Shown one piece after another: positions 33,946-46,751 of a DNA stretch of 64,000 bases. The translations under genes and the position numbers were made by a program. Every line of letters starts with the position of its first letter. Position 1 is the first letter of the stretch. Under the pieces are notes generated by a model. It ran no database searches. It worked only from the letters and a program-made list of their open reading frames with translations, and had not been told where the DNA came from. Source of the stretch: Scytonematopsis contorta HA4267-MV1 (GTDB lineage: Bacteria; Cyanobacteriota; Cyanobacteriia; Cyanobacteriales; Nostocaceae). The stretch is from the NCBI GenBank assembly GCA_019359035.1, contig JAHHIC010000053.1, positions 124,001-188,000 of the forward strand. The letters are read 5' to 3'.

Positions 33946-34124
33946 TTGGGCATTTTTTTTATTTGGAAATCTCGTAAGGAAAAATAGAGATGAATACGCA
34001 TTTATTGCTACATTCGTTAACCGAGCAGTATTGAAATTGGTTCGGGGTGAGGTAAGGCAATTGAGCGTTGGTTTTCTTCGATGTTAAAGTCAAATATATA
34101 TATATTTATGTGGAGGTTGTTACT

Positions 34125-34754
34125 ATGACCCAAGCACAAACCGAACCAAAATTATATACCTTTGATGAATTTATTGAATGGTATCCAGAAAACTCGGAAG
34201 TCCGGTACGAATTATATGATGGAGTGATTGTCGAGGTGCCAAAACCTAGGGGGAAGCATTCAAATTTAGCGGGTTCTCTCGGCGGAAGGTTGCTTACAAC
34301 TATTGATAGAATGGATAAAACCGACATTTGGACAATACCTAGAGAATCGATTGTTAAACCTTTCCGCGACAAGGCTGGGTACGAACCGGACATCATTGTT
34401 TTGAATCAAGAAACTATTGGCACTGAGACACGCTGGGAGAGTGAGTCAATTATTCAAAACGCGACTTCGGTCAAATTAATAGTAGAAGTTGTTAGTACCA
34501 ATTGGCAGGACGATTACTACGACAAACGTCGTGATTATGAAGCTATGGGTATTCCCGAATACTGGATTGTAGATTATGCTGCCTTGGGTGGACGTGAATT
34601 TATCGGCTATCCCAAACAACGCACTATCTTTGTATACGAACTAATTGAGGGGGAATATGTAAAAACAACGTTTAGAGACAGTGATGTGATTGTCTCCCCT
34701 ACCTTCCTACAATTTAACCTTACCGCGCAACAGATTTTTAATTTGGCTGGTTAA
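34125..34754 (+). CDS. Uma2 family (DUF820) PD-(D/E)XK nuclease-fold protein
   Basis: A 209-residue protein starting at ATG 34125, which has a GGAGG box 10 bp upstream; the open frame extends to 34068 without support. It shows the Uma2 pattern: YTFDEFIEWYPENSEVRYELYDGVIVEV, YEPDIIVLN near 88, LIVEVVSTNW near 122 and DYYDKRRDYEAMGIPEYWIVDY near 132-153, which correspond to the D, ExK-like core of a PD-(D/E)XK endonuclease fold. The family is greatly expanded in cyanobacteria and its function is unproven. Three more members lie within 9 kb. Confidence 0.82.
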   Translation: MTQAQTEPKLYTFDEFIEWYPENSEVRYELYDGVIVEVPKPRGKHSNLAGSLGGRLLTTIDRMDKTDIWTIPRESIVKPFRDKAGYEPDIIVLNQETIGTETRWESESIIQNATSVKLIVEVVSTNWQDDYYDKRRDYEAMGIPEYWIVDYAALGGREFIGYPKQRTIFVYELIEGEYVKTTFRDSDVIVSPTFLQFNLTAQQIFNLAG

Positions 34755-34881: not shown

Positions 34882-35466
34882 ATGATTTCTTTCCCCCTCG
34901 TACTGCGAATTCCCCCATCAATGCAAATGACATCAGAGCAATTTTTCGACTTTTGTCAGGAAAATCGTGATTTACGCATTGAACGGAACCAACTTGGAGA
35001 AATATCAATAATGTCCCCCACAGGTTCGGAAACTGGTAACAGGGAAGGTAATATATTTGGTCAACTCTGGGTATGGTCAGAAGAAGATGGTACAGGTATA
35101 ACTTTTAGTCCCAGCGCTGGATTTACGCTATCAACAGGTGCGGAACGCTCTCCTGATGCATCGTGGATTAAATTAGAAAGATGGAATGCTCTCTCTCCAA
35201 ACCAACAGCAAAAATTCGCTCCCATCTGTCCGGATTTTGTACTTGAACTAAGGTCAAAAAGCGATAATCTTGACCCTTTAAAAGACAAAATGAATGAGTA
35301 TATGAGAGAACCAGGAGTGCAATTAGGTTTGTTGATTGACCGTAAACATCGTCAAGTTTATATTTATCGTCCTGGTCAAGCAGAAGAATGTTTAGATAAT
35401 CCCGAAACTATTAGTTGTGAGCCAGTCTTACCGGGATTTTTTCTAAAAATGAGTAAAGTTTGGTAA
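34882..35466 (+). CDS. Uma2 family nuclease-fold protein, paralogue a
   Basis: A 194-residue Uma2 protein: MTSEQFFDFCQENRDLRIER near 17, EISIMSPTGSETG near 41, RSPDASWIKLERW near 90, CPDFVLELRSKSD near 115 and KMNEYMREPGVQLGLLIDRKHRQVYIYRPG near 130-160. It is highly similar along its whole length to the protein at 42601, ending in the same MSKVW. No membrane segment. It follows another Uma2 gene by 127 bp on the same strand. Confidence 0.82.
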   Translation: MISFPLVLRIPPSMQMTSEQFFDFCQENRDLRIERNQLGEISIMSPTGSETGNREGNIFGQLWVWSEEDGTGITFSPSAGFTLSTGAERSPDASWIKLERWNALSPNQQQKFAPICPDFVLELRSKSDNLDPLKDKMNEYMREPGVQLGLLIDRKHRQVYIYRPGQAEECLDNPETISCEPVLPGFFLKMSKVW

Positions 35467-36400: not shown

Positions 36401-37045
36401 CTAGATATTTTTTTCAAATTCATCATTTGCTTGAATTGAGTCTGTAATCAAAACACATCGCACAAGCAAAGCAATATCTAACTCTGGTAACAATTCGCTT
36501 TTAGTAATTTCTTCATAGCCGTAGGTGTCTGTAAAAATATCAGCTTCTTCTTTTTGAGAATTATCTCGTAGGTGGTAGAGCTTAAGTTTGTCACTCTGCC
36601 AAAACCAAACTTCTGGAACCCCTAGCCGTCGATATATTTCTAGCTTGCTTACGCTACCACTAGTAAAAACTACTTCTATTGCTAAGTCTGGAACATCTTT
36701 TTCTTCAAATAAACAATAGCATTCGTCAGGTTCTGCACCTGCTTTTTTGGCTTTGTTCTTAAAGGTTGTACTCCCAAAGGGAAAATGCCTAATCTTTTTT
36801 TTCCACAGGTAAAACGATAAAAGAAATGAAAACCTTGTTTTTGCCGATTCATGTCTTTTTGACGGTGACACAATTTCTAATATCCCATCCAAATAAGTTA
36901 CACGGTAATAAGAGCTATACTGTAGTTTGGCTAACAGTGTCTCATAGTTCTCCCAACTCACACCGCTGGTAGTAAATTTTTCTTCTGGGTCATCCGCATC
37001 AACTAGTTCAGGCTCTTCTATTAGTTCTTTAAGACTGCTGAGCAT
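36401..37045 (-). CDS. Uma2 family nuclease-fold protein
   Basis: A 214-residue Uma2 member of a different subgroup from its neighbours: WENYETLLAKLQYSSYYRVTYLDGILEIVSPS near 30-61, PDLAIEVVFTSGSVSKLEIYRRLGVPEVWFWQ near 115-148. The core residues (PD, ExV, K in the SKLEIYRRLG region) are in place. It is oriented with the dynamin cassette and lies 120 bp from the DLP-J stop, so it could be read from the same transcript. A MITE is inserted right after its stop. Confidence 0.8.
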   Translation of the reverse strand: MLSSLKELIEEPELVDADDPEEKFTTSGVSWENYETLLAKLQYSSYYRVTYLDGILEIVSPSKRHESAKTRFSFLLSFYLWKKKIRHFPFGSTTFKNKAKKAGAEPDECYCLFEEKDVPDLAIEVVFTSGSVSKLEIYRRLGVPEVWFWQSDKLKLYHLRDNSQKEEADIFTDTYGYEEITKSELLPELDIALLVRCVLITDSIQANDEFEKNI

Positions 37046-37165: not shown

Positions 37166-39460
37166 TTATAGTATTTCCGACAAAATAGCATAAGCTTGAT
37201 TCACTGTACGCATTTTTTCCTGAGCTTTTTTTAGCATTTCTGGTTGATTGACAAACAAATCAGGATGCCATTGTTTAACTAAATGACGATAAGTATTTTT
37301 TAGCTCAGCAGCCGAAGCACCGTCTTTCAATCCCAAAATCGCGTAAGCACTAGCAATTTTTTCTAGTTCTGATTGTTTTTTCCCTTGTTTAGGTGCTTTA
37401 TTAGTTTGATTTTGATTTTGGTTTTGGTTTGGATTTTGGTTTTGGTTTTGGTTAAAATTTTGATTTTGTTTCTGATTTGCTTTAGGAATTTTATAACCAG
37501 GAACACTCATTTCAGCTTTCATCCGTTTCATTTCTTCATCCAACTCCCAAGCATTAAATTTTACTTCTAGGTCTTCTTTTTTGGGAACGGAGAGTGGGGA
37601 GTGGGGAGTGGGAGAAGATGGGGGAGTGGGGAGGGAAGATGGAGAAAATGGGGAGGATGGGGAGGGAGATGGTGGTGGGTTTTTGATTGTTTTTGTTCCT
37701 AAATGTTCTTTTACTCCTGCTCCTTGCTGACGATAAACTGCATGAGTATTTGTTGTAGACCTTGGTGTCGGAGCTTCAACTTTTAACTCTTCTGGGATAG
37801 TAATTTTTAAAGTTGTTTCCAACTGTTGATTTAAGTAATGCAAACCATATTGTAATCTTTCTAACTCGTCTCGCTTTTGAGTAATTTCTAATGGCTCTTT
37901 ATCGACTTGAAAGTAAATAACTCCATTTGCTTTTCTCTCATATTCATCTAAAACTAATAAAGCTTGACGGCTAAAATCACTTAAATAATTATCCATAGCA
38001 TCAATACAAATTTTAGCAACTTGTTGATGATAAGAATCGTTGACAGTATTTTCTTCTTGTTTTTGTAATTGCTTATTTAATAAATAAGATACGCTTCCAA
38101 CAACTGCAGCACCTACTGGCCCACCTAATAACCAACCAATCCCACTACCGACTGCAAGGGAACCAGCATCACCTAAATCTTCTGTACCACTTGGCTTTGG
38201 TGGTAGAGTAATCCGTGGTGTACTAGGAAAGTAAATTAATAAATCTTCTGGTCTTGCTTGTTGGAAAAATTCGTATGCTTGAGATAACCAATTGATAATA
38301 TCAACTTTTAAGTCAGATAATTCTTTTTTTAAAACGTCTTTTTCCCAACTATGAAAATTATCTTGTACCAATGCTACTGTTGCATCTGATTGATATTTTG
38401 TTTTCAAATTTTCTATATTCAACCAATCCCGTAACTTAGAAATACTAGCATTAAATCCTTGCTTAATTATTTTTTCCGCTCGTTTTTTAATCTCAATTTT
38501 TGCATTATGTTTATCATCAAAAGCTTTAATCTCTGGATTTATAGAGTCAAATTTAATTTTTAAAGCTTTTTGTAATTGCAATGCTATAGCTTGTACTCGT
38601 GGTGAACTAACACCAACTTGATTTTGTTTAAGAATTCCTGTAATATTTTGCAATGCAGTTTCAAAAGTTGCTAAACCACTACTTGCAGCTTCTGCAACAT
38701 CACCTTTAAGTCTTGCACGCAAAGCAGGTAAAGCATCAACACGATATAAATTACTATAACCACGTGGTAATTCCGAGCGAAAACTTTCAGCAACAAATAA
38801 TAAACGGTTATAAACTTCTTTTTGTTCTCCAGGTTCCAATAAATTTAGAAAATTAACTACAAATATAACTGTTTTAATACCACGCTCTAATAACCAATCA
38901 CGCAAATGTTCTCGCTCTCCTAAAGTCATTAACTTACGAGCATCTAATAACTGTATAACTAAATCAGCACTCAATAATTGTTCTTTGACTAAATTATCTT
39001 GTTCTTCCCTATCATTTGTTCCCGGTAAATCTACAAATTCTACACCTCTGTCTAACAAAGAATGAGGACAAAATACTTCGACAGATGTAACATCATTTCG
39101 CATCCGTCTGTCACCATCAAGTATGGCAAATTGTTTTAAAACATCAGTTCCACTGCGATAAATTTCTGTCCCATCACTCAGCACAACTCTACTTCGTAAG
39201 TCACTCCCATATTTAACAGTAATCGCAGCACCAGTAGTGGGAATCAAATCAATTGGTAAAGCTCGACTTCCTAAAATAGCATTTAATAAAGTTGATTTAC
39301 CATGATTAAAAGGACCAAATACAGCAATTCTAAAATTAGGATTTGCAAGATAAGTAGAAATAGAATTTACATCTCTATATAATGATGAATGTGTATCTAG
39401 TTGTAATAATATAGAGGCTGATTTAAGAGCATTTAATAGTTTTTTATAATTTTCATTCAT
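37166..39460 (-). CDS. Dynamin-like GTPase fused to a C-terminal DnaJ domain
   Basis: A 764-residue protein with an N-terminal dynamin-type GTPase: P-loop GPFNHGKST at 49-57, switch T in PTTGAAIT near 75, G3 DLPGTND near 143. G4 is degenerate (VNFLN where an NKxD-type motif is expected). Helical stalk regions follow (about 260-400 and 470-560), with a Gly/Ala-rich hydrophobic hairpin (about 430-460, SGIGWLLGGPVGAAVVGSV) likely to touch membrane. A Pro/Ser-rich linker, an Asn/Gln-rich linker and a J domain with HPD at 732-734 come last. J domains recruit DnaK/Hsp70. It is adjacent to and co-oriented with a BDLP orthologue, so the two may form a hetero-oligomer (inference). Confidence 0.85.
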   Translation of the reverse strand: MNENYKKLLNALKSASILLQLDTHSSLYRDVNSISTYLANPNFRIAVFGPFNHGKSTLLNAILGSRALPIDLIPTTGAAITVKYGSDLRSRVVLSDGTEIYRSGTDVLKQFAILDGDRRMRNDVTSVEVFCPHSLLDRGVEFVDLPGTNDREEQDNLVKEQLLSADLVIQLLDARKLMTLGEREHLRDWLLERGIKTVIFVVNFLNLLEPGEQKEVYNRLLFVAESFRSELPRGYSNLYRVDALPALRARLKGDVAEAASSGLATFETALQNITGILKQNQVGVSSPRVQAIALQLQKALKIKFDSINPEIKAFDDKHNAKIEIKKRAEKIIKQGFNASISKLRDWLNIENLKTKYQSDATVALVQDNFHSWEKDVLKKELSDLKVDIINWLSQAYEFFQQARPEDLLIYFPSTPRITLPPKPSGTEDLGDAGSLAVGSGIGWLLGGPVGAAVVGSVSYLLNKQLQKQEENTVNDSYHQQVAKICIDAMDNYLSDFSRQALLVLDEYERKANGVIYFQVDKEPLEITQKRDELERLQYGLHYLNQQLETTLKITIPEELKVEAPTPRSTTNTHAVYRQQGAGVKEHLGTKTIKNPPPSPSPSSPFSPSSLPTPPSSPTPHSPLSVPKKEDLEVKFNAWELDEEMKRMKAEMSVPGYKIPKANQKQNQNFNQNQNQNPNQNQNQNQTNKAPKQGKKQSELEKIASAYAILGLKDGASAAELKNTYRHLVKQWHPDLFVNQPEMLKKAQEKMRTVNQAYAILSEIL

Positions 39461-39547: not shown

Positions 39548-41629
39548 TTAACTGTAGTAAGCCAATAAATTACTATAAGCCGATTCGATTTTCTTAATTT
39601 GTATCAGCACATCCTCTTGTAAAGTTTTCAAACGCTTAAATTCATTTTCGCGATTCACCTCACGAGTTTCCTTTTGTTTAAGTAAATTATCCAACTCCGA
39701 CTTGCGAGAAGCAATATCATCCTTAATTCGCTGACTAACTTCGCGTTCGTAAGCATCAAAACACTCTTTAACAGCATCCAAAACAACCGGATACTGTTCT
39801 TGTGCAACTTGCGGAAGATATTTAACTAATTCTTTCTTCGCTGTTTTTACCAACTGCTTCCGAGCTTGGTCTGCTTGTAAAAAGCCTACACCTAAACCAA
39901 GCAGAGTTACAGAAATAGGAATTAGAAAAGGACTAACTAAACCTGCGACTAGCGCACCTACACCAATTACTGTAAAGTAGTTTAACAAAATACTTTTCCA
40001 ATCAAAACCCGCACCAGCCATTGCGAAACCAGCTAAATTTCCTCCTGTTAGAGATAATAATCCCATAGCCCATTTTGCCCAAGCAGGTGAATTATCATCT
40101 TCTCCGGTTGCGTAGCTATTGACTCTGACTTTTTCTCCTGTTAATTTTTCGGTAATTTTATCGGTAACTTGGCTGTAAGATGCACCATATTGTGCAGCAC
40201 TTCTGGCTAATTGAGTAAAAGATTCATTTATATCTTTTTCCGCACTCAAACTCCAAGCAGCAAATTTATCGCTAATATATTGTTCAAAAGCTGTTTGCAA
40301 TGCATTATTAAAAGCTTCGCGTTTTCCAGAACTGAGAAAATCAAGAACATTTAAATCTGGTTGATAACGTAAAAAATCAGTTTCAAAAGTATTACCTAAA
40401 TTTAAAACATAATTTCGGAAAGACTCAGCAGTAGTTCTCGCTTGATTATCCCTAGTTTTAAAAATTTCTCCTTGGAACTGGTCGCGGATACCGTTTAACT
40501 TATTAAATTCCGGTTCTACCGAATTAATTTTTTCGCGTAACTGATTAACATCTTGGTCAAGTAAAGGAATACGTCTCGCAATTGCGTCACTTGTATGATT
40601 ACAAGCCTCTCTAGCCAAAGTTCTAACTTGTCGTAATTCTGCAACAGCGCGTTCTCTAGTTAAGAAGGTATTTAAAGCTCCCATAAAACTAGAAAAACCT
40701 GTTCCTTCTAAAGAAGCTTGAGGATTTTTTAATCTTTTACGCAGTGCTTGAATAGAAGAAATTTCAAACACGCGCTCATCATAAATATCTTGTCCTTCAA
40801 CAACACAATATTCAGCTAAATTCGCTTTAAAAACTTGCCGCAATCTTTCTTCTGATTCCCTCAATTCATCCTCATCATCGGGGTCAATCAAAGATTCTTT
40901 TACTTGGTCCCAAGCATTAATCAAAAAGAAAACTGAAAGCCCGCGTCCTTTGATATAATTTTCTAAATAACGTCGTTCACCTAAAGTACAAGGTTGAGAT
41001 GCTCGTAACACAAATAAAATTGCGTGACAACTGTTGATATAACCCAATGAAAGTTCGTTTCTTGCTTCCGTATCATTCAATCCCGGACTATCAATAATTT
41101 CAATACCCTTCTCCAATAGTGCTAATGGATATTCAACTACTGCATGACTAACATCAGGAAACGCAAGCTTTTTGTCCTGCTCTAATTTTTTTGCTTCCGC
41201 TGGGTCAATTGTATATTTATATTTAAATTCATCAAAACTTAATTCTTGGGGATTTTTCCCATCATTAAAATAGACATAAACTTTCTTTTCTGCACCGTAA
41301 CGCAAAATGGTTAAAACCGCAGTACAAGGATTAACATCACTGGGTAATAATCTTTCGCCAATTAAAGCATTTAAAAAAGTACTTTTACCCCGCTTCATAT
41401 CCCCTAAAACTAATAGACGGAAAACACCCGTACGGAGATTTTTACTAGCTGCTTTAATATCTTCAATATCTCGTTCTAAACTAAGCTTACCTGAGGATGA
41501 ATCTCCTGCAATTTCTGCATTAGCAATTATATTTGCTAGCTGACTTAAAGAATCTGCTACCTCAGAACGAGTTTTAACAACACGCTCTAAATCATTAATA
41601 AAACTATCAGTTTCGATTCTGTTACTCAT
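39548..41629 (-). CDS. Bacterial dynamin-like protein BDLP
   Basis: A 693-residue protein, the same length as and closely similar from memory to the structurally characterised Nostoc punctiforme BDLP. GTPase motifs: P-loop LGDMKRGKST at 75-84, G2 Thr in PCTAVLT, G3 DSPGLND near 180, G4 NAWD near 237. Neck and trunk helices enclose the paddle hydrophobic segment (about 570-610, LLNYFTVIGVGALVAGLVSPF), which inserts into lipid, and the C-terminal helix ends AYSNLLAYYS as in BDLP. The family tubulates membranes when GTP-bound. It lies 36 bp downstream of a small membrane protein gene and 87 bp upstream of the dynamin-J gene, in one operon. Confidence 0.92.
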   Translation of the reverse strand: MSNRIETDSFINDLERVVKTRSEVADSLSQLANIIANAEIAGDSSSGKLSLERDIEDIKAASKNLRTGVFRLLVLGDMKRGKSTFLNALIGERLLPSDVNPCTAVLTILRYGAEKKVYVYFNDGKNPQELSFDEFKYKYTIDPAEAKKLEQDKKLAFPDVSHAVVEYPLALLEKGIEIIDSPGLNDTEARNELSLGYINSCHAILFVLRASQPCTLGERRYLENYIKGRGLSVFFLINAWDQVKESLIDPDDEDELRESEERLRQVFKANLAEYCVVEGQDIYDERVFEISSIQALRKRLKNPQASLEGTGFSSFMGALNTFLTRERAVAELRQVRTLAREACNHTSDAIARRIPLLDQDVNQLREKINSVEPEFNKLNGIRDQFQGEIFKTRDNQARTTAESFRNYVLNLGNTFETDFLRYQPDLNVLDFLSSGKREAFNNALQTAFEQYISDKFAAWSLSAEKDINESFTQLARSAAQYGASYSQVTDKITEKLTGEKVRVNSYATGEDDNSPAWAKWAMGLLSLTGGNLAGFAMAGAGFDWKSILLNYFTVIGVGALVAGLVSPFLIPISVTLLGLGVGFLQADQARKQLVKTAKKELVKYLPQVAQEQYPVVLDAVKECFDAYEREVSQRIKDDIASRKSELDNLLKQKETREVNRENEFKRLKTLQEDVLIQIKKIESAYSNLLAYYS

Positions 41630-41665: not shown

Positions 41666-41986
41666 TTACTTATTATTATCAAAAAATAATTTGTAACTTA
41701 CAAATACTAACGCTCCTATGATTACAGCCCCAGCCACAAATGAAGCAACTCTTACAGCTACAATTGCAACAACTGCGAGACCAAATAACTTAAGCCCGAT
41801 AACAGCTTTTTTTTGCCATAACTTACCGCTACTCTCGGTTTCATGCTTGGTTGTGTTATAAAACTTTACCTCTTGGATTTTAGTTTCTTCCTTTTTTTCT
41901 TCTGGGACTACGTGCTTGGTTTCTTTTTCCCTAATTTGACGCTCAATGCGTTGCATCATTTCGTCATATTCATCTGGAGATTTCAT
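41666..41986 (-). CDS. Small coiled-coil membrane protein of the dynamin operon
   Basis: A 106-residue protein of unknown family. The first 60 residues are charged and helical (MMQRIERQIREKETKHVVPEEKK...), and the last 40 contain a pair of close hydrophobic helices (IGLKLFGLAVVAIVAVRVASFVAGAVIIGALVFVSYKLFF, about residues 63-102). It is the first gene of the BDLP / dynamin-J operon, 36 bp ahead of BDLP. A membrane adaptor or anchor for the dynamins is a reasonable guess, with no direct evidence. Confidence 0.65.
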   Translation of the reverse strand: MKSPDEYDEMMQRIERQIREKETKHVVPEEKKEETKIQEVKFYNTTKHETESSGKLWQKKAVIGLKLFGLAVVAIVAVRVASFVAGAVIIGALVFVSYKLFFDNNK

Positions 41987-42600: not shown

Positions 42601-43185
42601 ATGTTTACCTCACCTATTTTTTTACAGATGCCAGATAATTTACAAATGACAGACGAGCAATTTTTTGAATTCTGTCAAGTGAACCGCGATTATCGCATCG
42701 AGCGGAATAAAAATGGAGAAATATCAATTATGTCCCCAACAGGTGGAACAACAGGTTATAGAGGAGGAAACATTTTTGGTCAAGTGTGGGTGTGGTCAGA
42801 ACAAGACGGTACAGGTATCTGTTTTGACTCCAGCACTGGATTTAAATTGTCAACAGGTGCAGACCGTTCCCCCGATGCATCTTGGATGAAATTAGAACGT
42901 TGGAATAGTTTAACCCAACAACAGCAAGACAAATTCGTACCTTTGTGCCCAGATTTTATCATCGAGCTAAGGTCTTCTTCCGACAGACTCAAACCTTTAA
43001 AAGAAAAAATGCAAGAGTATATGCGGGAACCAGGAGCAAGAGTCGGTTGGTTAATTGACCGTCAAGAGCGCAAAGTTTATATTTACCGTCCGGGGATGGA
43101 GGAAGAATGCTTAGATAATCCCGATACTATTAGTGGTGAGTCAGTACTACCTGGGTTCGTACTAAATATGAGCAAAGTCTGGTAA
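42601..43185 (+). CDS. Uma2 family nuclease-fold protein, paralogue b
   Basis: A 194-residue protein nearly identical in layout to the one at 34882: LQMTDEQFFEFCQVNRDYRIER, EISIMSPTGGTTGYRGGNIFGQ, RSPDASWMKLERW, CPDFIIELRSSSDRL, YMREPGARVGWLIDRQERKVYIYRPG, ending MSKVW. The two appear to be a duplicated pair 7.7 kb apart on either side of the dynamin cassette. Function unproven. Confidence 0.82.
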   Translation: MFTSPIFLQMPDNLQMTDEQFFEFCQVNRDYRIERNKNGEISIMSPTGGTTGYRGGNIFGQVWVWSEQDGTGICFDSSTGFKLSTGADRSPDASWMKLERWNSLTQQQQDKFVPLCPDFIIELRSSSDRLKPLKEKMQEYMREPGARVGWLIDRQERKVYIYRPGMEEECLDNPDTISGESVLPGFVLNMSKVW

Positions 43186-45603: not shown

Positions 45604-46602
45604 TCAAGCTGGGTATTCGTGAGAAACAAAAGGAATAGTTACCACTTCCCCTTCTGCTTCTCCTACCTGAACCTTCAAACCCACACCACCCGCTTTAGTA
45701 CGGATATAGCCCAGTCCGAAATATCCATCATTAGTTTCTGTGTAACTAGTGATTTTACCGACTTTTTCTTCCCCAATAGTAATCATAGTACCCGCTTCTA
45801 CCGCCGCATTCAGACGGATTCCCCACAGATTTTGCTTTACTCCTTTATAAGTATTTAAGCGAGCAATCGTTTCCTGTCCGATGTAACAACCTTTGCTAAA
45901 TGAAACGGTTTGCCACAAACCAACTTCCAAAGGGTTATAATCATCAGTCAATTCTTTTTCTGGGACAGGACGACCTTCCAACACTCGCAACATTTCCCAA
46001 GCGGTTTCGCTCATTTCCACCGCACCCAATTTTAAAAGTTTTTGCCAAACAACCTCTTTATCTGTAACAGGGAAATTCAGCGTATATCCAGGAGAAGCCA
46101 ACCCACTACCAACCGCAATACGTACTCCCTCAGCAGAGGAAATTGTGTATACTTGGTGACTTCCGTATGGTTTTCCTGTCAGTTCTCCTGCTGTGAGTGT
46201 TTCAATTATTCCATGACTTTTTGGCCCTATCAGGCTAAAGGTACAAGTATAATTTGTAATATCAGCCAACTCAACCTTGTCAGCAAAGAAAATATATTTA
46301 TCTAACCACTCAATCAAAAACTCGCGACGATTGGGAGATACCAGCAGGATAACAGCATCATCCCTCACATAAGCGGTTGCGAGGTCAATTGTTCTAGCAG
46401 TGGAAGAAACAAAAACAGTATCACAACCTTGACCAGGTTTGAGGCTTTGGAAATCATTAGTACTTTGGTTGTGCAAAAACCGGAGACGGTCATCACCTGA
46501 CACTTTTATCCGTCCCCAATGAGAGCGATCGCAAACAGCAACAGATTGTTGTGCGGCAATAATGGCTTCTGCGTCTTTATTATCAATTGCGGGTTTAGAC
46601 AT
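45604..46602 (-). CDS. ygfZ: YgfZ/GcvT-like folate-binding protein
   Basis: A 332-residue folate-binding protein of the YgfZ family, which supports maintenance of Fe-S enzymes and tRNA modification. The family signature is FSKGCYIGQETIARL near 225, with the Cys present; DRLRFLHNQSTNDF near 33 is also typical. ATG 46602 (MSKPAIDNKD) is chosen: the open frame runs another 45 codons upstream only because the heptad array translates into a TNYQLPI repeat with no stop. It lies downstream of a hypothetical gene on the same strand, across the STRR region. Confidence 0.85.
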   Translation of the reverse strand: MSKPAIDNKDAEAIIAAQQSVAVCDRSHWGRIKVSGDDRLRFLHNQSTNDFQSLKPGQGCDTVFVSSTARTIDLATAYVRDDAVILLVSPNRREFLIEWLDKYIFFADKVELADITNYTCTFSLIGPKSHGIIETLTAGELTGKPYGSHQVYTISSAEGVRIAVGSGLASPGYTLNFPVTDKEVVWQKLLKLGAVEMSETAWEMLRVLEGRPVPEKELTDDYNPLEVGLWQTVSFSKGCYIGQETIARLNTYKGVKQNLWGIRLNAAVEAGTMITIGEEKVGKITSYTETNDGYFGLGYIRTKAGGVGLKVQVGEAEGEVVTIPFVSHEYPA

Positions 46603-46608
46603 AATAAA

Positions 46609-46751
46609 TTTTGGTAATTGGTAATTGGTAATCGGTAATTGGTAATTGGTAATTGGTAATTGGTAATTGGTAATTGGTAATTGGTAATTGGTAATTGCCC
46701 ACTCCCTACTCCCCACTCCCCACGAACAACTCCCCACTCCCCACTCCCTAC
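46609..46751. repeat. STRR heptads (TAATTGG then CCCCACT)
   Basis: About twelve TAATTGG units followed by about eight CCCACTC/CCCTACT units. Two different heptad families are joined end to end. The right end supplies the TAG stop (46748-46750, reverse) of the upstream hypothetical gene. Confidence 0.9.

Follow-up and report, generated by a model that had tools for sequence, protein, structure and literature searches.

A dynamin-like protein with a C-terminal J domain adjoins the BDLP1 orthologue of Scytonematopsis contorta and may recruit DnaK

The locus examined here raises the question of what a bacterial dynamin-like GTPase would do with a J domain at its C-terminus, and of whether such a fusion is real. 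The gene lies at 37166..39460, on the minus strand, in a 64,000 nucleotide stretch (the window) of contig JAHHIC010000053.1 of Scytonematopsis contorta HA4267-MV1 (assembly GCA_019359035.1, positions 124,001 to 188,000). The original prediction, drawn from the letters of this stretch, proposed a dynamin whose coat is taken apart with the help of DnaK, and knew of no description of this as a characterised system.

The gene is a single unbroken ORF of 764 codons with an ATG start, and its 764 aa product, delimited by the ORF, Pfam, relatives and an AlphaFold model, is referred to here as BDLP2-J. A Dynamin_N GTPase domain (PF00350; E 1.3e-27, 97.3 bits against a Pfam cut-off of 27), also placed by the motif columns of the alignment, spans residues 45–203 (38852..39328, minus strand). 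A DnaJ domain (PF00226; E 6.8e-13, 48.9 bits against a cut-off of 27.8), for which pLDDT and dN/dS are further evidence, spans residues 705–762 (37175..37348, minus strand) and includes an HPD motif at 37259..37267 (minus strand) that was read directly from the codons. The predicted combination of a dynamin GTPase and a C-terminal J domain with an intact HPD is, thus, present. No other DnaJ-type Pfam domain was found in the protein at E 1, and with PF00226 and HPD present and the other DnaJ-type domains absent BDLP2-J can be classed with the J-domain proteins of class C type. The best NCBIfam match is to the membrane co-chaperone DjlA over residues 665–760, though at 48.9 bits it is far below the cut-off of 162 bits. 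PADLOC matched BDLP2-J to the anti-phage defence proteins LeoA (49.7 bits) and LeoBC (46 bits), with no curated cut-off given; these moderate scores were read as general dynamin similarity and a defence role is not favoured. A phage origin was discarded, as a scan of viral contigs gave no relative, and so was a plasmid origin, since no plasmid match covered more than 33 % of the protein and every one lay within the GTPase part.

An AlphaFold model bears out both folded parts. The model used (60 aligned rows, mean pLDDT 79.7; an earlier one from 25 close rows, pLDDT 69.1, was dropped) has pLDDT values mostly of about 90 or more in the GTPase domain and helical trunk, with block means of about 87–96 in the helical neck/trunk after the GTPase domain (residues 281–400 and 481–550) and of 90–97 in the J domain. 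By its GTPase domain and helical trunk, BDLP2-J belongs to the bacterial dynamin-like proteins. The closest fold found with VIA-align was that of mitofusin 1 (5yew_C; Z 27.4, rmsd 4.5 over 334 residues), and the matches also included Fzo1 (9kfd_B; Z 26.7, rmsd 5.1 over 329), NpBDLP1 (2j69_A; Z 21.9 over 458, rmsd 41.9, a high value that probably reflects different domain angles) and Cj-DLP (5owv_C; Z 19.6, rmsd 15.1 over 437). Auxilin was absent among the PDB sequence matches and the best 50 rows of each fold list, which carries no weight. A hydrophobic membrane hairpin had also been predicted. One Gly-rich hydrophobic segment is indeed found at residues 436–462 (38075..38155, minus strand; 27 residues, mean Kyte-Doolittle 1.24), and from its hydropathy and its position between trunk helices of the model, at low confidence, it is a candidate membrane-contacting tip (paddle), but the hairpin form is unproven because AlphaFold leaves residues 425–474 below pLDDT 50. 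The expected long disordered linkers were recovered at residues 570–625 and 651–692, both below pLDDT 50, but the region between them is not disordered throughout and holds a conserved predicted helix (residues 628–652, pLDDT about 70) that had been overlooked.

BDLP2-J is not a lone dynamin. Its upstream neighbour, 87 bp away at 39548..41629 (minus strand), encodes a 693 aa protein that matches the crystallised Nostoc punctiforme BDLP1 (PDB 2j68) over its full length, with 1220 bits, and the Pfam family PF21808 at E 2.2e-176, and is the BDLP1 orthologue. Upstream of this gene, a small hydrophobic, probably membrane, protein of 106 aa is encoded at 41666..41986 (minus strand). It had no match above cut-off in Pfam or NCBIfam, and a homologue precedes BDLP1 in 29 of 37 named loci (E 2e-9 or better); a weak 84 aa match (5e-4) was seen in locus L074, in which no BDLP1 was found. 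The 106 aa protein, BDLP1 and, as third gene, BDLP2-J form a conserved trio. Given the BDLP1 orthologue upstream, the conserved trio and the close co-occurrence described below, the dynamin-J protein is therefore BDLP2, and its gene lies beside a BDLP1 (Tandem B) gene as expected for the Tandem A (BDLP2) clade, these clades having been defined by Jilly et al. 2018 (PMC5827413). Four ORFs around the trio (34068–34754, 34882–35466, 36401–37045 and 42601–43185) presumably encode Uma2-type (DUF820) proteins, which are common in cyanobacteria. Other dynamins of the same genome (L090–L092) were compared by similarity only.

Nor is the fusion itself new. Liu, Noel and Low 2018 (PMC6104087) mention a DnaJ-like domain at the C-terminus of the dynamin-like protein adjoining BDLP1 (UniProt B2IZD2), and suggest that this domain may bind DnaK and may be an assembly domain with BDLP1; the protein is therefore not undescribed. 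Bacterial dynamins usually occur as pairs (PMC6104087, PMC4159319), and a different dynamin clade beside DnaK genes is described by Jilly et al. 2018, in whose text (PMC5827413) no occurrence of 'dnaj' was counted. No experimental work on BDLP2-J was found among the matches listed in the open-access literature, and in the open-access literature searched we did not find a report of the helix and J domain as a module, of the separate form of this module, of the selection pattern, of the co-occurrence counts or of the altered G4 motif, all of which are set out below.

That the fusion might stem from a frameshift or an assembly join, or that its J domain might be decaying and without function, was judged from its distribution. 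Among 145 genomes of the same family, sampled from a larger group, 70 including that of S. contorta hold an intact full-length BDLP2-J. All 70 copies were read, in three sets (30, 35 of 40 stretches, and 5 loci), and the relatives share 56–68 % identity over the matched part, some matches stopping before the linker. As full-length, single-frame copies occur in 69 other genomes, a frameshift or assembly join is rejected, and the concern that relatives might all lack the J domain is likewise removed. HPD is kept in 69 of the 70 copies, including that of S. contorta; the other (G053, locus L214) has HHD. This copy, together with a few genomes in which only a broken BDLP2 is left, is what speaks for a relic, but the number of intact copies and the purifying selection on the J domain (see below) make an artefact or relic highly improbable. 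Of the five remaining stretches of the 40, two hold partial copies (G090 and G008) and three hold broken ones (G095, G062 and, split over two frames, G067); BDLP2 in G014 is also broken.

The partner follows the same distribution. BDLP1 was found at E 1e-150 in 72 of the 145 genomes and all 70 genomes with an intact BDLP2-J fall inside this set, the two extra being G067, where BDLP2 is broken and a full BDLP1 is kept, and G026. The BDLP1 matches are not all whole, with two internal stops in G059 and partial matches in G024, G025 and G026. BDLP1 and BDLP2-J share a contig in 69 of the 70 genomes (G064 has a contig break), and in 68 of these 69, again including S. contorta, they lie within 1 kb of one another. 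Three genomes (G014, G062 and G095) have a broken BDLP2 and no BDLP1 at E 1e-150, as if the pair decays together. One genome carries a second, divergent BDLP1 (G107:C1:8205658-8208704; 59 % identity, 960 aa open frame) beside a short BDLP2-like frame of 431 aa. A search with the 121-residue BDLP1 tail matched 45 of 53 genomes, with a best identity to the crystallised BDLP1 of 99 %; in three loci (L014, L015 and L017) the tail is 97–99 % identical to the crystallised one and BDLP2 is J-fused. Across the phylum, a BDLP2-type match at E 1e-60 was found in 34 of 386 genomes, 23 of them in the same family. In the 11 genomes inspected outside the family, among them a more distant paralogue (G432) and a copy with two stops (G467), no J domain was found in or beside BDLP2. 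J-less BDLP2 in other lineages were likewise not met in the open-access literature searched.

The roles of the G motifs are well established, the Asp of G4 reading guanine, and its loss weakens or shifts nucleotide preference in GTPases. In BDLP2-J, G1 (GPFNHGKST) and G3 (DLPG) are intact, and across the 70 copies G.{4}GKS is found in 66 and DLPG in 69. G4 does not follow the canonical [N/T]xxD. It reads NFLN in S. contorta, so that Asn takes the place of the Asp that closes NAWD in BDLP1, and NFxN in 70 of 70 copies. In an alignment (A4) all 42 BDLP2-type rows, J-less and separate-J ones included, have NFxN, the 12 BDLP1-type rows have NAWD or NGWD, and three outgroup and three outgroup-neighbour rows have other readings. 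From this change we predict that the nucleotide preference of BDLP2 may be weakened or shifted; a description of the protein as GTP-specific is therefore less secure, and its membership of the fold is unaffected. It is conceivable, though we consider it unlikely, that the pair divides its labour, with BDLP1 providing GTP-driven assembly and BDLP2-J, whose G4 Asn may not read GTP as usual, providing Hsp70/ATP-driven release through a portable helix and J module, fused or separate. If so, bacteria would have their own equivalent of chaperone-driven uncoating, acting on a dynamin polymer.

Selection differs along the tail. Nei-Gojobori dN/dS values were pooled over 562 pairs, not independent of one another, drawn from 76 sequences that carry HPD (G053, with HHD, was left out), a choice that slightly biases them towards J-domain conservation. 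They were 0.178 for the J domain and 0.151 for the helix, against 0.546 and 0.330 for the two linkers; the GTPase domain gave 0.115 and the trunk 0.216. Such values indicate that the helix and the J domain are under purifying selection and kept for function while the linkers drift. The drifting linker DNA that flanks the conserved helix (37405..37672, minus strand) bears tandem repeats at 37405–37478 and 37589–37672, inside the coding sequence, which are made up of hexamers (an Asn/Gln run) and GAGTGGG-type heptamers translated in frame as disordered linker; the 24 aligned relatives have a gap in place of the long Asn/Gln run. The same heptamer type was seen at 46699–46723 on the minus strand, in ORF 45604–46737(-), where the repeats seem to inflate the listed N-terminus. 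Because this N-terminus holds translated repeats, the true start of that ORF is probably further in.

The conserved linker helix region (residues 632–652; 37505..37567, minus strand), a candidate docking helix by its pattern, the model and dN/dS, accompanies the J domain. The pattern FxxWE[LIMV][DNE][EQ]E, in short FxxWELDEE, is found in 69 of the 70 copies, and the 70th (L016) reads FRTWEFDEE. Among the 37 named loci, which are not independent of the family genomes because three proteins are identical between them and had already been counted, 19 are fused, 5 have a separate J gene, 11 are J-less and 2 are fragments. In the five separate-form loci, all in Laspinema/Oscillatoria, a J-less BDLP2 of 560–566 aa is followed directly downstream by a J protein of 112–114 aa that keeps HPD (5 of 5) and whose N-terminal helix motif, EAKFxxxEMDAEL or a variant of it, resembles the helix of the fused form. 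None of the other J-protein loci inspected showed this motif. For the 11 J-less loci no J gene was found in the stretch, which for L057 ends 117 bases past the gene. When a helix and J profile was searched against 15 genomes, 11 of them J-less, the matches in the J-less genomes begin at profile position 36 or beyond and lack the helix, with the exception of a fragment in G432 (five stops, E 3.4e-9); a copy of the module elsewhere in the J-less genomes was, hence, set aside, only the linker or J part being matched save for that fragment. In the Laspinema/Oscillatoria loci (L068–L071 and L073) the BDLP2 tip has a hydropathy mean of -0.28 to -0.02, against 0.8 to 1.4 in other BDLP2 rows, and so has lost hydrophobicity, and a second BDLP1 paralogue lies in the same cluster. 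A related J-less BDLP2 paralogue, 35–37 % identical, also adjoins other dynamins (L129, L134 and L135) and has APFNFGKST at G1 and NxMN at G4.

In a tree of the dynamin parts (22 fused, 17 J-less, 5 separate and 3 outgroup rows), which carries several long branches, the fused and the separate forms each make up one clade (100/100 each) and are not sisters. The separate-J clade is nested among J-less rows, and presence or absence of J needs two changes. In a tree of the J domains the fused and separate forms group together (83/84, not starred), though with 62 columns, an unsettled bootstrap and long-branch warnings. The simplest reading would be a single origin of the helix and J module, which may have moved between neighbouring gene and fusion.

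These findings bear on whether the tail acts, as raised in PMC6104087, mainly to join BDLP2 to BDLP1, with DnaK binding secondary. Such a joining role, on a random-coil linker, is ascribed to the assembly domain of Cj-DLP1 (PMC6104087), and the helix at 628–652, on its disordered tether and with a dN/dS of 0.151, would fit such a role. However, many J-less BDLP2 also adjoin a BDLP1-type gene, so that pairing need not depend on the tail, and HPD would hardly be retained in 69 of 70 copies of a mere glue domain. We consider this reading improbable.

A conserved fusion with a J domain under purifying selection makes DnaK recruitment the natural reading, as originally supposed, and on these sequence grounds recruitment of DnaK by BDLP2-J is likely. 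The genome of S. contorta has three near-full Hsp70 matches over 800 bits (DnaK-type). As to what DnaK would be recruited for, our best single guess, tentatively held and a little short of an even chance, is the chaperone-driven release of a dynamin assembly: BDLP2-J would partner BDLP1 and bring DnaK to their assembly, most likely for disassembly. BDLP1 and BDLP2-J would co-assemble on the membrane via their dynamin parts, and the conserved linker helix would dock the tail of BDLP2-J on the assembly. The J domain on its flexible tether would then bind DnaK-ATP and trigger its ATPase, so loading DnaK onto the dynamin assembly, and ATP-driven DnaK would prise the polymer apart or reset it. The complex with BDLP1, the docking of the helix, the binding of DnaK and the disassembly outcome are each steps that we infer. 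An outside disassembly factor is plausible because assembly-stimulated GTPase activity of BDLP1 was undetected in vitro (PMC2862293). When turnover is reduced, according to the same paper, assembly is favoured at the expense of disassembly. The same source reports that BDLP1 disassembly is coupled to nucleotide hydrolysis, so a chaperone may be unnecessary. Further points against are the many J-less BDLP2 (11 of 37 loci and 11 genomes outside the family, in overlapping sets), which imply that the pair needs no attached J domain in order to work, the HHD copy in G053 and the imperfect BDLP1 in G059, G024 and G025.

The dynamin part might instead serve as an address label, the J domain bringing DnaK to BDLP-marked membrane patches to handle damaged or newly inserted membrane proteins, with the dynamin polymer not itself a client. 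The long flexible tether suits reaching other clients, and cyanobacterial DnaK3 is described as binding thylakoid membranes and has been implicated in thylakoid protein complexes (PMC7281324), but a conserved helix next to J, in the fused and the separate form alike, suggests that the module docks on a particular partner close by. Of the alternatives to release of the assembly this is the least unlikely, though we would not expect it to be correct.

DnaK-titration switches are known elsewhere, and their logic suggests that J-bound DnaK could keep BDLP2 inactive until stress diverts DnaK and BDLP1 and BDLP2 assemble to seal or fuse membranes. Bacterial dynamin-like proteins have been linked to membrane stress (PMC6104087), but no CIRCE-type heat-shock element was found in the window within 3 mismatches of the consensus; we regard a stress switch as quite improbable.

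If DnaK disassembles BDLP assemblies, the control of membrane-remodelling polymers by chaperones, which is known for clathrin and VIPP1, would also take in dynamins, and bacteria with them. BDLP2, the genomic partner of the founding bacterial dynamin, is given one sentence in the literature covered; a helix and J module that is present fused, present separately or absent offers a direct handle on BDLP assemblies.

Among known systems, auxilin, which uncoats clathrin with Hsc70, has a part that binds the coat and, tethered to it, a J domain at the C-terminus. There the polymer is clathrin and not dynamin, and homology is claimed for the J domain alone, so that the likeness is one of analogy and not of membership. 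Mitofusin/Fzo1 and NpBDLP1 have a fold like that of the dynamin part of BDLP2-J and, to our knowledge, no J domain, and at G4 the BDLP1-type proteins have NAWD or NGWD where BDLP2-J has NFxN. N. punctiforme BDLP2 (B2IZD2; Tandem A, PMC5827413) has the same place beside BDLP1 and the same architecture of dynamin and C-terminal DnaJ-like domain, and from this synteny BDLP2-J appears to be its orthologue. A difference is the gap between the two genes, 87 bp here and 525 bp in N. punctiforme (PMC4159319), and the linker of the copy here has an Asn/Gln insertion. The Campylobacter pair Cj-DLP1/Cj-DLP2 (5owv) is alike in having adjoining dynamin genes, one of whose products carries a further domain attached through a flexible linker (PMC6104087), but that domain is an assembly domain whereas in BDLP2-J it is a J domain. 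In the Chlamydomonas chloroplast, HSP70B, CDJ2 and CGE1 disassemble VIPP1 rods in vitro, so that there too a J protein directs Hsp70 at a membrane-remodelling polymer of photosynthetic membranes (PMC10602608), although CDJ2 is a separate protein, unlike the fused J domain of BDLP2-J, and VIPP1, a member of the ESCRT-III superfamily (PMC8281802), is not a dynamin.
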